The notes under the pieces: generated by a model | The model's database searches: none | What the model saw: the letters and a program-made list of their open reading frames with translations, nothing else | Told to the model about the DNA's origin: nothing | Shown here: one piece after another, positions 6,258 through 9,788 of the stretch | How the letters are laid out: each line of letters starts with the position of its first letter | How positions within the stretch are numbered: the first letter of the stretch is position 1 | Source: a virus | IMG/VR virus record: IMGVR_UViG_3300042401_000222 | Span: 1 to 20,033 of that record | Reading direction: 5' to 3' (one strand) | DNA: 20,033 bases | Position numbers and translations under genes: made by a program

Positions 6258-6448
6258 TGACACCAAAAGAAAAAGCAGAAGAATTAGTAGGTAAATTTAT
6301 AAATCACACTCACGAATCTTGTAAATTAGAAGCTAAACAATGTGCATTAATAGCAGTTGATGAAATGATTGAAGAATCAATATGATATTTATCAATTGAT
6401 AGAAATAAATATTGGAAAGAAGTTAAACAAGAAATAGAGCTATTATGA
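6257..6448 (+). pseudogene. small phage protein interrupted by in-frame TGA
   Basis: Starting in a TAATG overlap, the frame encodes MTPKEKAEELVGKFIN...AKQCALIAVDEMIEESI, then TGA at 6383-6385, then continues in the same frame with YLSIDRNKYWKEVKQEIELL and a TGA at 6446-6448 overlapping the helicase ATG as ATGA. Both halves resemble the two ends of a small family I recall from Bacteroidota phages (start MTPKEKA, middle KQCALIAVDE, end YWxEVKQEI). The simplest reading is one 63-codon gene with a nonsense change. Alternatives are a 42-aa truncated product, UGA readthrough, or a sequencing error. The function of the family is unknown. Confidence 0.65.
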
Positions 6449-7509
6449 GTTTTAAACTATTAAATGCAGAAGTTGAGAAAGGAATGAATGATCTCAACAA
6501 AGGAATCCCTATGGGATTTGATCGCTTGACTAGATATGTAGGTATTCGTAAGAGTATGTATTATCTTGTAGGTGGTCTAACTGGTAGTGGTAAGACTTCT
6601 TTCATTGATGATGCATTTGTTCTTAATCCTGTTGATTGGGCTATGTCTAAAGAAGGAATTGCTTCAGGTATCAAGGTGAAGGTATGGTATAGGTCCATGG
6701 AGAGAAGTAGAACTTATAAGATTGCCAAATGGGTATCTCGTAAAATATTTCTAGACCAGGGAATCATTATTCCTGTAGGTAAGCTTCTTGGTTGGACTGA
6801 GAAGCTGACTAAAGATGAACATGATCTGTTCTTACATTACAAAGATTATGTAGATAAGCTGTGTGAAATTGTTACTATCATTGATGGACCAGAAAATCCT
6901 GTAGGTATAGCAAAAGAACTAAAAACTTATGCTGAAGAGAATGGATCTATAGAACAAATGGACCAATGGAATAAAATATATATTCCTAATGACCCAAGTC
7001 AAATCACTATGGTGGTTATAGATCACATTGGTTTGCTTAAGCTAACTAAAGATCAACCTACGAAGAAACAAGCTATTGATAAGATGTCTGATGAACTCAG
7101 ATATGCTAGAGATTTCTATGGATATTCACCAGTGGTGGTTAGTCAGTTCAATCGTGACATTTCTAATCCTTCTAGGATAAAGAATGGTGATGTAGAACCT
7201 CAACTAGAGGATTTTGCAGACAGCTCAGCAACACAGAATGATGCAGATGTTGTCATGGCATTATTTGATCCTATGAGATACAAGGTTGCAGACCCTAGTG
7301 GTTATGACTTAGATAAACTAAAAGATCAACATGGAGCTAAATATTTCAGAAGCTTGAGACTTATCAAGAATAGCTATGGAGAAGATGATGTACGCATTGG
7401 TTTAGGTTTCCTAGGCCAGATTGGAATGTTCAAGGAATTAAATAGGAAAAAAGATATGACTGATGCAGATTATGAATCAGTTGTTAATAAAACTTGGTTT
7501 CTTAGATAA
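6445..7509 (+). CDS. DnaB-like replicative helicase (SF4)
   Basis: A 354-aa RecA-fold helicase expected to unwind DNA ahead of the phage polymerase as a hexamer. Walker A is GLTGSGKT (residues 44-51, K50). The DnaB H1a-type motif is YRSMER with E86 as probable catalytic glutamate. Walker B is VVIDHIGLL (D193). The sensor glutamine is Q234 (VVVSQFNR). A DnaB H3/H4 region follows (SSATQNDADVV, then LIKNSYGEDDVRI at about 306-318). There is no N-terminal primase-interaction domain, so it is shorter than bacterial DnaB, as in many phages. The last 29 codons before its stop (7420-7506) occur again, diverged, at 8471-8557, so its present 3' end probably arrived with the homing-endonuclease insertion. 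Confidence 0.93.
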   Translation: MSFKLLNAEVEKGMNDLNKGIPMGFDRLTRYVGIRKSMYYLVGGLTGSGKTSFIDDAFVLNPVDWAMSKEGIASGIKVKVWYRSMERSRTYKIAKWVSRKIFLDQGIIIPVGKLLGWTEKLTKDEHDLFLHYKDYVDKLCEIVTIIDGPENPVGIAKELKTYAEENGSIEQMDQWNKIYIPNDPSQITMVVIDHIGLLKLTKDQPTKKQAIDKMSDELRYARDFYGYSPVVVSQFNRDISNPSRIKNGDVEPQLEDFADSSATQNDADVVMALFDPMRYKVADPSGYDLDKLKDQHGAKYFRSLRLIKNSYGEDDVRIGLGFLGQIGMFKELNRKKDMTDADYESVVNKTWFLR

Positions 7510-7525
7510 AATTTATTGAATAATA

Positions 7526-7557
7526 TTTGGTAGTTTGTAAAAGATACCTTAACTTTG
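7526..7557 (+). promoter_or_regulatory. complete Bacteroidota promoter driving the homing endonuclease
   Basis: A TTTG at 7526-7529 and TAACTTTG at 7550-7557 are separated by 20 nt, matching the Bacteroidota TTTG...TAnnTTTG promoter. The endonuclease ATG is 17 nt downstream. This is the only place where I find both boxes at proper spacing. Confidence 0.75.
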
Positions 7558-7574
7558 TAATAAAATTTTATATT

Positions 7575-8264
7575 ATGAAAACAGGTATCATTTACACACT
7601 CTCACATCCTATAACAAAAAAAGTTGTTTACGTAGGTAAAACAATCAATACCTTAGAAACTAGATTATATGGTCATATTGGAGATAGTAAAAGGCACAAT
7701 AGAAAGATCTGTAAATGGATAAGTAAATTAACTTCTGAAGGATTAATACCATTGATTGAAGAGTTGGACTCTTCTTCTGAAGAAGATTTAGCTAGATTAG
7801 AAATATTCTATATTGAACTATTCAAAGCTTGGGGATTTGATTTAAAAAATCATACTGATGGTGGAGAAGGATTAATAGGTTTCAATCATTCAGAAAAATC
7901 AAAATTATTAATGTCAAAAGAAAGAAGAAGAGAAAAAAATGCTTTTTATAACAAGACTCATTCTCAAGAAGCAAAAGACAAAATATCAAAGGCAAACAAA
8001 AATAGAAAAATGTCTGAAGAGTTTTGTAATAAGAGAAGTCAATACATGAAAGCTAATCCTATACCAAAAGAAACTTATCAAAAAATAGCAGAGGCTAACA
8101 AAATAAAAGTTGCCCAATATGATCTTGATATGAACCTTGTAAAGATACATGATTCAGCTGCTGATGCATGTAGAGATTCACCTGACTTATCAACTGGACA
8201 CATATCTAGTTGTTGTAAAGGTAAGAGAAAAACACACAAAGGGTTTGTGTGGAAGTATTATTAA
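7575..8264 (+). CDS. GIY-YIG homing endonuclease with NUMOD DNA-binding repeats
   Basis: A site-specific nuclease gene of 229 aa. The GIY-YIG domain (residues 3-95) shows GIIY (4-7), YVG (19-21), the catalytic Arg in ETRLYGH (R30), a candidate catalytic Glu in LARLEIFYIE (E76), and the NHTDGGEG segment (92-99). NUMOD3-like repeats follow (GFNHSEKSKLLMSKERR, NKTHSQEAKDKISKANK, about 102-150), then a NUMOD1/ENR-like module (VAQYDLDMNLVKIHDSAADACR ... KTHKGFVWKYY, 179-229). ATG 7575 is chosen over an upstream TTG at 7527 because the promoter lies between them and GIY-YIG proteins start right before the GIY motif. It sits just after the helicase stop with its own promoter. The likely target is the helicase gene near its 3' end in phages lacking the insertion. 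Confidence 0.93.
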   Translation: MKTGIIYTLSHPITKKVVYVGKTINTLETRLYGHIGDSKRHNRKICKWISKLTSEGLIPLIEELDSSSEEDLARLEIFYIELFKAWGFDLKNHTDGGEGLIGFNHSEKSKLLMSKERRREKNAFYNKTHSQEAKDKISKANKNRKMSEEFCNKRSQYMKANPIPKETYQKIAEANKIKVAQYDLDMNLVKIHDSAADACRDSPDLSTGHISSCCKGKRKTHKGFVWKYY

Positions 8265-8283
8265 TGTTTAAGACAAATAAGAA

Positions 8284-8454
8284 ATGGATATTACAGAAAA
8301 ACAAAGAAGTTATATTACTTTCATTGAAGATGAAACAGGTATAATTTTTAATGGAACAACAAAAAAGGAAGCTACAAAATACATATCTGAAAACAAAGAT
8401 AAAGTACCTGCATCTGGATCAATAAATATGTGGGCATTAGTTAATGGATATTAA
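8284..8454 (+). CDS. 56-aa protein carried with the homing endonuclease
   Basis: The ATG at 8284 opens 56 codons: MDITEKQRSYITFIEDETG, then FNGTTKKEATKYISEN, ending SINMWALVNGY. The pattern 'TEKQ..FI..IE..TG..F.GTTK.EA..YI' resembles short phage proteins related to the DUF3072-type fold, a guess from memory. It lies between the nuclease gene and the leftover helicase end, so it is probably part of the mobile insertion. The function is unknown. Confidence 0.65.
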   Translation: MDITEKQRSYITFIEDETGIIFNGTTKKEATKYISENKDKVPASGSINMWALVNGY

Positions 8455-8470
8455 TTTAAAAATAAATAAC

Positions 8471-8563
8471 ATTGGTATGTTCAAAGAACTCCCTAGAAAG
8501 AAAGATATAACAGATTCTGATTATACAGCAATTACTAACAAATCATATTTCCTAAGAGAATGA
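8471..8563 (+). pseudogene. orphan second copy of the helicase 3' end
   Basis: Reads IGMFKELPRKKDITDSDY, then TAITNKSYFLRE and TGA. It aligns without gaps to the last 29 residues of the helicase (IGMFKELNRKKDMTDADY...NKTWFLR), with 20 of 29 identical and many synonymous codon differences. It has no start of its own, and homology stops abruptly upstream at 8471. Its TGA (8561-8563) overlaps the SF2 helicase ATG at 8560 as ATGA, the coupling used elsewhere in this genome. It is therefore best read as the original 3' end of the helicase gene, cut off by the insertion. Confidence 0.85.
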
Positions 8564-9636
8564 CATTAAGAGATAAAAGGCAAGAAGAATTTGCTGATGA
8601 ATGGTTAATACATAAACATGGCATATTAAATTTATGCCCTAGATTTGGTAAAATTAGAACTAGTATCAATATACTTGTAAATCTTAATCCAAAAACTGTG
8701 TTAATTGCTTATCCAGACAACAAGATAAAAGACTCTTGGCAAGATGAGTTTGAAGATAGATTAATGACTCATCATATGGAAATAACATACAGCACACATC
8801 TATCATTAAAAAAGTTAGTAGACAATGAGTATGATATTATTATTATAGATGAGATACATCTTTTGTCTGAAGCTCAGATAGAAGCATGTAAGGATTTATT
8901 TAGTAACAATGCTTGTATACTAGGTCTCACTGGTACATTAGCCAGTGAGACAGAAAGAACCTTAGAAGAAGAACTTGATTTACATGTTATAGCTACATAT
9001 CCAATTGAAAAAGCAATTGAAGAGGGAGTGATAGTAGATTATGAAATACATGTAATAAGAGTTCCTCTGGATAACACTGTGTACAATGATTACAAGGGTA
9101 AGCTTAAGACTGAGAAGAAACATTATGATGGCATATCCTGGGTGATTAACAAACTACAGAATAGTGGCACAGACACAATGTTTTTACGTCTAGCAAGAAT
9201 GAGACTTATTCAATCATCTTTAGCTAAAACTAATGCTACGAAAAAGCTATTAGCTAAACATAAAGATGAAAGAGTGTTAGTATTCTGTGGCACCACTGCT
9301 GTTGCAGATAATCTAGGTATTCCTTCCTATCATAATAAGTCTAAAGAGAAAGAAATCTTTGAAGACTTTGCTGAAGGTAAAGGGAATCATCTAGCTGTAG
9401 TTAAAATTGGTAACACAGGTGTTACATATAAACCTCTTGACAAGGTGATAATAAACTATTTTGATAGTAATGCAGAGAACTTAGCACAGAAGATAAATAG
9501 ATGTATGGCTATGGAGTATAACACACCAGATAAAAAAGCTCACATATATATTGTCAGTACTAATGAACCTGTAGAGCTAAAATGGTTGTCAAAAGCATTA
9601 GAATTCTTTGATGAAAACAAAATAAAATACTTGTAA
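8560..9636 (+). CDS. SF2 DEAD/DEIH-type DNA helicase
   Basis: A 358-aa helicase of the UvsW/Rad3-like SF2 kind, expected to remodel forks or recombination intermediates. Motif I is PRFGKIRTS (K31), a non-standard Walker A lacking the Thr/Ser right after Lys. Motif Ia region is VLIAYP; motif II is DEIH (97-100); motif III is TGT (124-126); motif V is GNTGVTY (284-290); motif VI is QKINR (Q310, R314). Length matches short phage SF2 helicases with two RecA domains and no large insert. The start overlaps the orphan helicase 3' end (ATGA), so its original translational coupling partner is now separated from the intact helicase by about 1 kb. Confidence 0.9.
   Translation: MTLRDKRQEEFADEWLIHKHGILNLCPRFGKIRTSINILVNLNPKTVLIAYPDNKIKDSWQDEFEDRLMTHHMEITYSTHLSLKKLVDNEYDIIIIDEIHLLSEAQIEACKDLFSNNACILGLTGTLASETERTLEEELDLHVIATYPIEKAIEEGVIVDYEIHVIRVPLDNTVYNDYKGKLKTEKKHYDGISWVINKLQNSGTDTMFLRLARMRLIQSSLAKTNATKKLLAKHKDERVLVFCGTTAVADNLGIPSYHNKSKEKEIFEDFAEGKGNHLAVVKIGNTGVTYKPLDKVIINYFDSNAENLAQKINRCMAMEYNTPDKKAHIYIVSTNEPVELKWLSKALEFFDENKIKYL
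8924..8951 (+). other. perfect 10-bp inverted repeat inside SF2 helicase gene
   Basis: GTCTCACTGG (8924-8933) and CCAGTGAGAC (8942-8951) are perfect reverse complements with an 8-nt loop. It covers the codons of helicase motif III. Coding constraint alone does not require it. Confidence 0.5.
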
Positions 9637-9788
9637 TGGAAACAATAGAAAGAATTTTTCTTGAAAGAGCATTAAAAATGAAAAAATTATATGAATCAAC
9701 TCCTTGGTGGAGATTTAAAATACGAAGATATTTTAAAAAAGAATGGCATTTATGCAGAGAATTAATGGTTAAATATGGTTCTAATTAA
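9636..9788 (+). CDS. unknown basic protein, 50 aa
   Basis: Starts in a TAATG overlap with the SF2 helicase stop and encodes METIERIFLERALKMKKLYE, then a Trp- and Arg-rich stretch (STPWWRFKIRRYFKKEWHL), ending KYGSN. It is strongly basic, with helical N-terminal and aromatic-basic central parts, compatible with nucleic-acid or membrane-surface binding. No family is recognised. Tight coupling and regular codon use support a real gene. Confidence 0.6.
   Translation: METIERIFLERALKMKKLYESTPWWRFKIRRYFKKEWHLCRELMVKYGSN

Follow-up and report, generated by a model that had tools for sequence, protein, structure and literature searches.

The window, that is, the whole stretch of DNA that was analysed, is a virus record of 20,033 bases. 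It carries an operon that encodes a DNA polymerase A, a DnaB-like helicase, an SF2 helicase, a Sak4-like protein, a primase and an RIIA-like protein. The nearest named relatives of the DnaB-like helicase are found in crAss-like phages and other Bacteroidota phages, at approximately 30% identity, and the window phage is itself crAss-like. The features in and behind the DnaB-like helicase gene are listed below, with the basis of each assignment in parentheses.

6445-7509, plus strand: DnaB-like helicase gene, 354 aa (Pfam DnaB_C, E 2e-15)
6445-7419, plus strand: native helicase body, codons 1-325 (DnaB_C; 96.6% nucleotide identity to the uninserted locus L002, same group in the body tree)
7420-7509, plus strand: imported spare 3' end, codons 326-354 and stop (98-99% nucleotide identity among four carriers whose bodies are 77-87% identical)
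7507-7509, plus strand: stop codon TAA of the hybrid helicase (sequence)
7526-7557, plus strand: predicted Bacteroidota-type promoter TTTG-N20-TAACTTTG in the nuclease leader (motif match)
7575-8264, plus strand: GIY-YIG homing-type endonuclease, 229 aa (Pfam PF01541, PF07460 and PF22083 above cut-offs; PHROG homing endonuclease, E 3e-20)
8284-8454, plus strand: predicted cargo ORF of 56 aa (tblastn and ORF comparison; also in L059)
8455-8470, plus strand: right end of the inserted element, TTTAAAAATAAATAAC (junctions compared across nine carriers; native tail directly after)
8471-8563, plus strand: displaced native 3' end, codons 326-355 and TGA (100% nucleotide identity to the L002 tail; in-frame ATG at 8444)
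8560-9636, plus strand: SF2 helicase gene (Pfam ResIII/Helicase_C; native ATGA overlap with the preceding helicase stop)

The helicase gene ends in 29 codons (7420-7506) that recur at 8471-8557. The two copies agree at 20 of 29 amino-acid positions and 62 of 87 nucleotides, and 9 of the 20 shared residues are specified by different codons. The best other 29-residue stretch on the plus strand reached at most 8 matching positions, and the maximum in 200,000 shuffles was 11. A diverged repeat with silent differences had been noticed in an earlier reading made from the window alone (the sequence-only reading), as had the stop codon, promoter, GIY-YIG nuclease and 56-aa ORF between the copies, all of which are present at 7507-8454. 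The downstream copy was also said to keep the ATGA overlap with the next helicase, and it does end in ...FLRE and a stop codon that overlaps the SF2 helicase gene in this manner at 8560. The accompanying remark that this copy has no start was wrong: its frame opens with ATG at 8444, runs for 40 codons and overlaps the 56-aa ORF. The helicase is not left in two pieces; it is full length (354 aa) with an alternative end. The nuclease gene, which is preceded by a stop codon, is free-standing and lies outside any intron or intein.

Searching with both helicases and the nuclease yielded 164 loci, from which 89 distinct helicase ends could be read; the carriers of the element are all uncultured metagenome contigs. 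In L002, the uninserted locus nearest to the window, the helicase body is 96.6% identical in nucleotides, and the tail is 100% identical to the downstream copy of the window and 71% identical to the upstream copy. Consequently, the downstream copy is the native end, as the sequence-only reading had proposed, and the upstream copy, which follows the nuclease and not the helicase body, is imported. Uninserted loci that end in ...FLRE and a stop codon with the ATGA overlap to the SF2 gene, which had been expected among related phages, include L002, L004, L009, L024, L030, L033, L072 and others. Carriers keep a displaced native-type tail downstream of the nuclease. Nuclease-free relatives with both tails, the finding named beforehand as speaking against an import, were absent from the 89 distinct loci.

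Carriers fall into two types by their upstream tails. In type A (the window, L010, L031 and L059), upstream tails are 98-99% identical in nucleotides, leaders are identical and nucleases are 98-99% identical, with bodies at 77-87%. Type B carriers (L043, L044, L046, L048, L049, L058 and L084) share their own tail, ELGIFAEMPRKKDITDDDYRRITDKSFFLK (including the preceding E), which is 97-100% identical in nucleotides among them and 61-64% identical to that of type A; their nuclease is 87% identical to the type A nuclease at the nucleotide level. Most differences between the leaders of the two types lie in a stretch of some 17 bases directly behind the stop codon, beyond which the leaders are nearly identical, so the tail was probably exchanged as a unit. 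In the tree of helicase bodies, carriers are scattered and do not form clades (AU p 8e-8 for type A and 2e-5 for type B), with 8 state changes for nine carriers. Carriers stand beside uninserted relatives in five pairs: the window with L002, L059 with L064, L031 with L047, L043 with L034, and L049 with L033. These relationships show repeated transfer of the cassette between lineages.

Downstream tails follow the local lineage (window and L002, 100%; L043 and L034, 97%; L049 and L036, 97%; L059 and L064, 94%), and that of L059 groups with L064, L065 and L067 (SH-aLRT 95). The lineage is less clear in L010, L031, L044 and L048, in which the best match of the downstream tail is not the nearest relative of the body, owing to heavy recombination and the short length of the tail (87 nt). 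When downstream tails were reassigned among carriers, a fit at least as good as that of the real tail-body pairings arose in 41 of 40,320 permutations, in support of a link between downstream tails and bodies; the corresponding value for upstream tails was also low (96 of 40,320), and the test does not give a clean contrast between the two copies because types A and B occur in different host groups. An AU test on the 87-nt tail tree is weak, rejecting the placement of the upstream tail of the window with L002 and L024 at p 0.04, and the tail comparisons rest on direct identities instead of such tests. Separate histories for body and tail had been anticipated, and the comparisons agree: the upstream tail travels with the nuclease, and the downstream tail of the window belongs to the local lineage (100% identity to L002).

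Comparison of the junctions in nine carriers places the left edge of the element at codon 326. Type A carriers have ATT or GTT as the first tail codon and type B carriers have TTA or CTC, in each case the codon of the host, and the element's own sequence begins with the second codon. The spare end of the window is accordingly foreign from about its second codon, GGA; in L059 the first codon is GTT, as in the host lineage. At the right, the element ends in ...AAATAAC or a similar sequence, and the native tail starts immediately. In a structure model of the helicase built from 31 relatives (mean pLDDT 76), the junction falls in a turn between strands 316-323 and 328-331, and the tail forms the last strand and the C-terminal helix. 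This turn is, with moderate confidence in the model, a plausible site for an end swap. At the level of sequence comparison, the insertion, its left edge, the foreign upstream tail and the native downstream tail are established.

The element comprises a foreign 3' end, a stop codon, a Bacteroidota-type promoter, a GIY-YIG nuclease and variable cargo. The predicted promoter is the sole match to TTTG-N19/20-TAnnTTTG on either strand of the 20 kb, with 0.12 expected on the plus strand; this is the pattern of Bacteroidota promoters. It is nearly identical in type B carriers, and the same motif with a diverged spacer occurs in L160, L161 and L166. The C-terminal part of the nuclease contains NUMOD3 (PF07460) and an I-HmuI NUMOD-like domain (PF22083), constituting a DNA-binding NUMOD-type tail. 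Residues Y7, Y19, G21, R30, E76 and N92, which are typical of the GIY-YIG family and catalytic in it, are invariant in eight relatives. With dN/dS values of 0.09-0.29 between relatives, the nuclease is intact and under purifying selection. A PDB sequence search with the nuclease gave no match, and the named phages in the searched collection contained no close relative of it (best full-length match approximately 33%). The cargo between the nuclease and the right edge is the 56-aa ORF in the window and L059; other small ORFs occupy this position in L010/L031/L048, L043 and L049, and none is present in L044.

We interpret this arrangement as a mobile homing cassette that carries a spare 3' end and has inserted at helicase codon 326, and assign this reading a probability of roughly 0.86. 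The general idea of the sequence-only reading, a nuclease that brings a spare helicase 3' end and uses neither intron nor intein, is supported by the relatives and the trees. During co-infection, the nuclease would cut element-free helicase genes near codon 325/326, and repair would copy the cassette into the break, with the helicase body as the left arm and the native tail and SF2 gene as the right arm. The spare end would complete the cut gene, such that the essential helicase stays functional. The recipient's own tail would be stranded downstream as the right homology arm, where it could decay, and the insertion by itself would part the two halves of the target site. The codon at the first changed position is GGA in all upstream copies and GGT in all displaced copies, and GGT is found in 47 of 60 nuclease-free ends; as a mark of cut resistance this difference is only suggestive, because GGA accounts for 29% of glycine codons in the bodies.

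The alternative that survives best, although we consider it rather unlikely, holds that the nuclease normally resides in the spacer behind the helicase and cuts within the helicase gene. The 29 codons would then be the DNA between cut site and nuclease, and rescue would be a by-product, not the cause of the element's success. Six loci have the arrangement that this account starts from (type C: L161, L166, L293, L297, L298 and L303), with the same promoter pattern and the same nuclease family directly behind a helicase whose tail is type A-like (83% of amino acids in L293); their nucleases are approximately 60% identical in L161 and L166, and no displaced tail copy was seen in these loci. Intronless homing of the T4 type is also known to co-convert flanking DNA (PMC2988022). 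However, plain co-conversion would replace the recipient's tail, which stays intact behind the element in nine carriers, and one nuclease family is joined to two very different tails (61-64% nucleotide identity between A and B, compared with 87% for the nuclease) with the helicase frame exactly kept in both. This alternative concerns the origin of the element more than its present working. Under the favoured reading, too, the spare end probably derives from a more distant helicase gene behind which the nuclease originally resided, in the type C arrangement; in the simplest history, the nuclease first lived behind a type C-like helicase and took the end of that gene along when it moved. Tails similar to A and B also occur without this nuclease (L045, L028 and L117).

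The remaining alternatives are far less probable. Tandem duplication of the helicase's own 3' end, with later insertion of a nuclease between the copies, would give the observed direct-repeat tails on both sides of the nuclease, but it has very little chance of being correct: the upstream copy is foreign to the lineage of the body (71% nucleotide identity to L002, compared with 98-99% to carriers with distant bodies), and no nuclease-free locus has both copies. It is scarcely credible that the downstream copy arrived later and that the upstream tail, although it continues the reading frame of the body, is the native one. At the ATGA junction of L002, the nearest relative that lacks the insertion, stands a tail of the downstream type (100%), which refutes the upstream tail as the native end, and in L059 the first tail codon, GTT, follows the native lineage while the remainder is foreign. 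Just as remote is a group I intron or intein with the body and the downstream tail as exons. Such an intron does exist elsewhere in this helicase gene (codon 47 of L072) and was detected there, but an Rfam search of 6300-9700 found no ribozyme core at the insertion, even at E<=1. The hybrid gene does not require splicing, and protein splicing is ruled out, because an in-frame foreign tail with its own stop codon precedes the nuclease. An assembly artefact has a negligible probability, for although the data are all metagenome contigs, more than 10 of them, from different metagenomes and with different flanks, show this arrangement with exact edges.

Some loci differ from the complete arrangement, and displaced ends decay. 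In L058, the displaced tail is reduced to NKSYFLRE and a stop codon, joined at a common AACAAAT. In L023, which is without the nuclease, the first 60 tail bases are 98% identical to type A and the last 27 are 100% native; such a tail would be the expected product of recombination, either of the two tail copies with each other or of a phage that has the insertion with one that lacks it.

Mirror-image elements, in which a GIY-YIG nuclease is accompanied by a foreign SF2 5' end and the native first 28 codons of the SF2 helicase gene are stranded upstream, are located at L034:2364-3388, L103:3060-4084 and L154:4718-5742. In L034, L103 and L043, this nuclease (270 aa), different from that of the window, follows these 28 codons (...NLCPR). 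The end of its gene overlaps an SF2 gene that is complete but begins with a foreign sequence, MSKSLRDIRQAEFAKAWIDKGKKGIIYACPR. Between L034 and L103, the nuclease and the spare 5' end are 99.9-100% identical and the stranded native starts 88% identical; L103 shares its stranded start, at 100% identity, with the relatives L035 and L044. L025 and L007 carry a LAGLIDADG nuclease followed by a different foreign SF2 start, with a frameshifted remnant of the native start upstream. Other pairings of a helicase end with a nuclease, for which the earlier reading had suggested looking, thus exist, mirror-image 5' ends included. A generic scan for flank duplications across 122 nuclease loci, which was not exhaustive and missed the type B pairs because their tails are too diverged, returned one case in an unrelated phage. 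At L209:2759-4969, the native start MTRKEIYSQC...TGTGK is stranded before a LAGLIDADG gene, which is followed by a full SF2 helicase with a different start. The element sits at the SF2 Walker A motif, and the gene is undisturbed in L268 and L269. L209 represents an independent spare-5'-end case.

A homing endonuclease that enters an essential gene is generally held to require an intron or intein, unless the gene can withstand being split. Mobile ORFs that bring a foreign C-terminus have been described in fungal mitochondria, in atp6 of Allomyces macrogynus and in atp6, atp9 (GIY-YIG), cox2 and nad3 of Glomus sp., where the hybrid gene is transcribed (PMC3630166). As in the window, an endonuclease gene and a foreign 3' end are inserted near the end of an essential gene, and the native end is displaced downstream and nearly identical to that of close relatives, whereas the imported end is diverged (PMC3630166). 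The window shows both hallmarks of such an ORF, the foreign in-frame 3' end and the displaced native end, in a phage and not in a fungal mitochondrion. The phage element further differs in its many carriers in several lineages, its two very different tails with one nuclease family, its own Bacteroidota-type promoter, its swapped cargo and its 5' mirror versions. Ophiostoma rps3 and Phlebia cox2/atp6 likewise have endonuclease insertions at the 3' end with the C-terminal segment doubled or moved downstream, but these are mitochondrial, and rps3 is fused in frame with a LAGLIDADG ORF (PMC12308204, PMC4019555).

Among phages, the Seg and Mob nucleases of T4 and F-CphI are similarly free-standing genes beside essential genes that have spread to relatives; in T4-type systems, however, flanks are co-converted or the gene is split, as in Aeh1 nrdA/mobE and T4 gene 60/mobA (PMC2988022, PMC6083498). 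In contrast to the Aeh1 nrdA-mobE type, the helicase here is not left in two reassembling pieces. A review of T4 systems describes none with a spare gene end and a displaced native end (PMC2988022). The engineered HomeR drive also places a nuclease cassette in an essential replication gene together with a re-coded 3' end that keeps the gene functional, but it is a CRISPR system in Drosophila, and its re-coding was designed and not acquired from a relative (PMC7968924). A literature search, with subscription journals mostly outside its coverage, found the mitochondrial precedents and no phage report. Spare 3' ends were thus already known from fungal mitochondria; least expected are the mirrored 5' version and the involvement of several nuclease families.

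Taken beyond this locus, the evidence somewhat favours spare-end homing as a general phage strategy, in which unrelated nucleases (GIY-YIG, LAGLIDADG and perhaps HNH) have repeatedly become natural home-and-rescue drives with spare 3' ends or spare 5' ends (plus promoter) of the essential genes that they cut, without introns or inteins. Bringing a new gene end would constitute another route into essential genes in phages. As natural counterparts of engineered home-and-rescue drives, these elements could reveal how such drives arise, exchange their rescue segments and disappear. In crAss-like phage genomes they account for chimeric helicase ends and for orphan gene fragments that an annotator would regard as errors. 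A gene end repeated across a nuclease gene offers a cheap genome signature for finding further elements.

Further variation was observed at other loci. HNH genes (PHROG E 3e-57) in L052:5126-5800, L117:3321-3995 and L055 overlap the SF2 start with their own gene end. The helicase end on one side of them resembles type B, and the SF2 start on the other side is altered, without stranded fragments; the two gene ends may have been exchanged in a single event. L063:6110-6970 contains a stranded SF2 5' fragment with a stop codon, three small ORFs and a foreign SF2 start, without a recognised nuclease, and is perhaps an element minus its nuclease. In L037:2611-4752, the SF2 helicase is split at motif II (VVIVD / EIHLL) by a GIY-YIG/NUMOD1 segment that has no Rfam match and is possibly an undetected intron; a truncated LAGLIDADG gene lies ahead of the SF2 start in the same locus. 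The helicase-SF2 spacer is a hot spot in many loci, with gaps of up to 2778 bases that hold ParB-like genes and many small genes, varying between close relatives. The group I intron of L072, a close relative of the window, occupies L072:4142-4482 (Rfam RF00028, 86 bits); within this lineage, the helicase gene thus also accommodates a mobile element by other means. An insertion of 823 bases at L131:1318-2140 also lies at helicase codon 47, without an Rfam match at gathering score. Finally, a 16-residue sequence is repeated with 100% identity on both sides of a LAGLIDADG gene in L244 (52-99 and 1364-1411).
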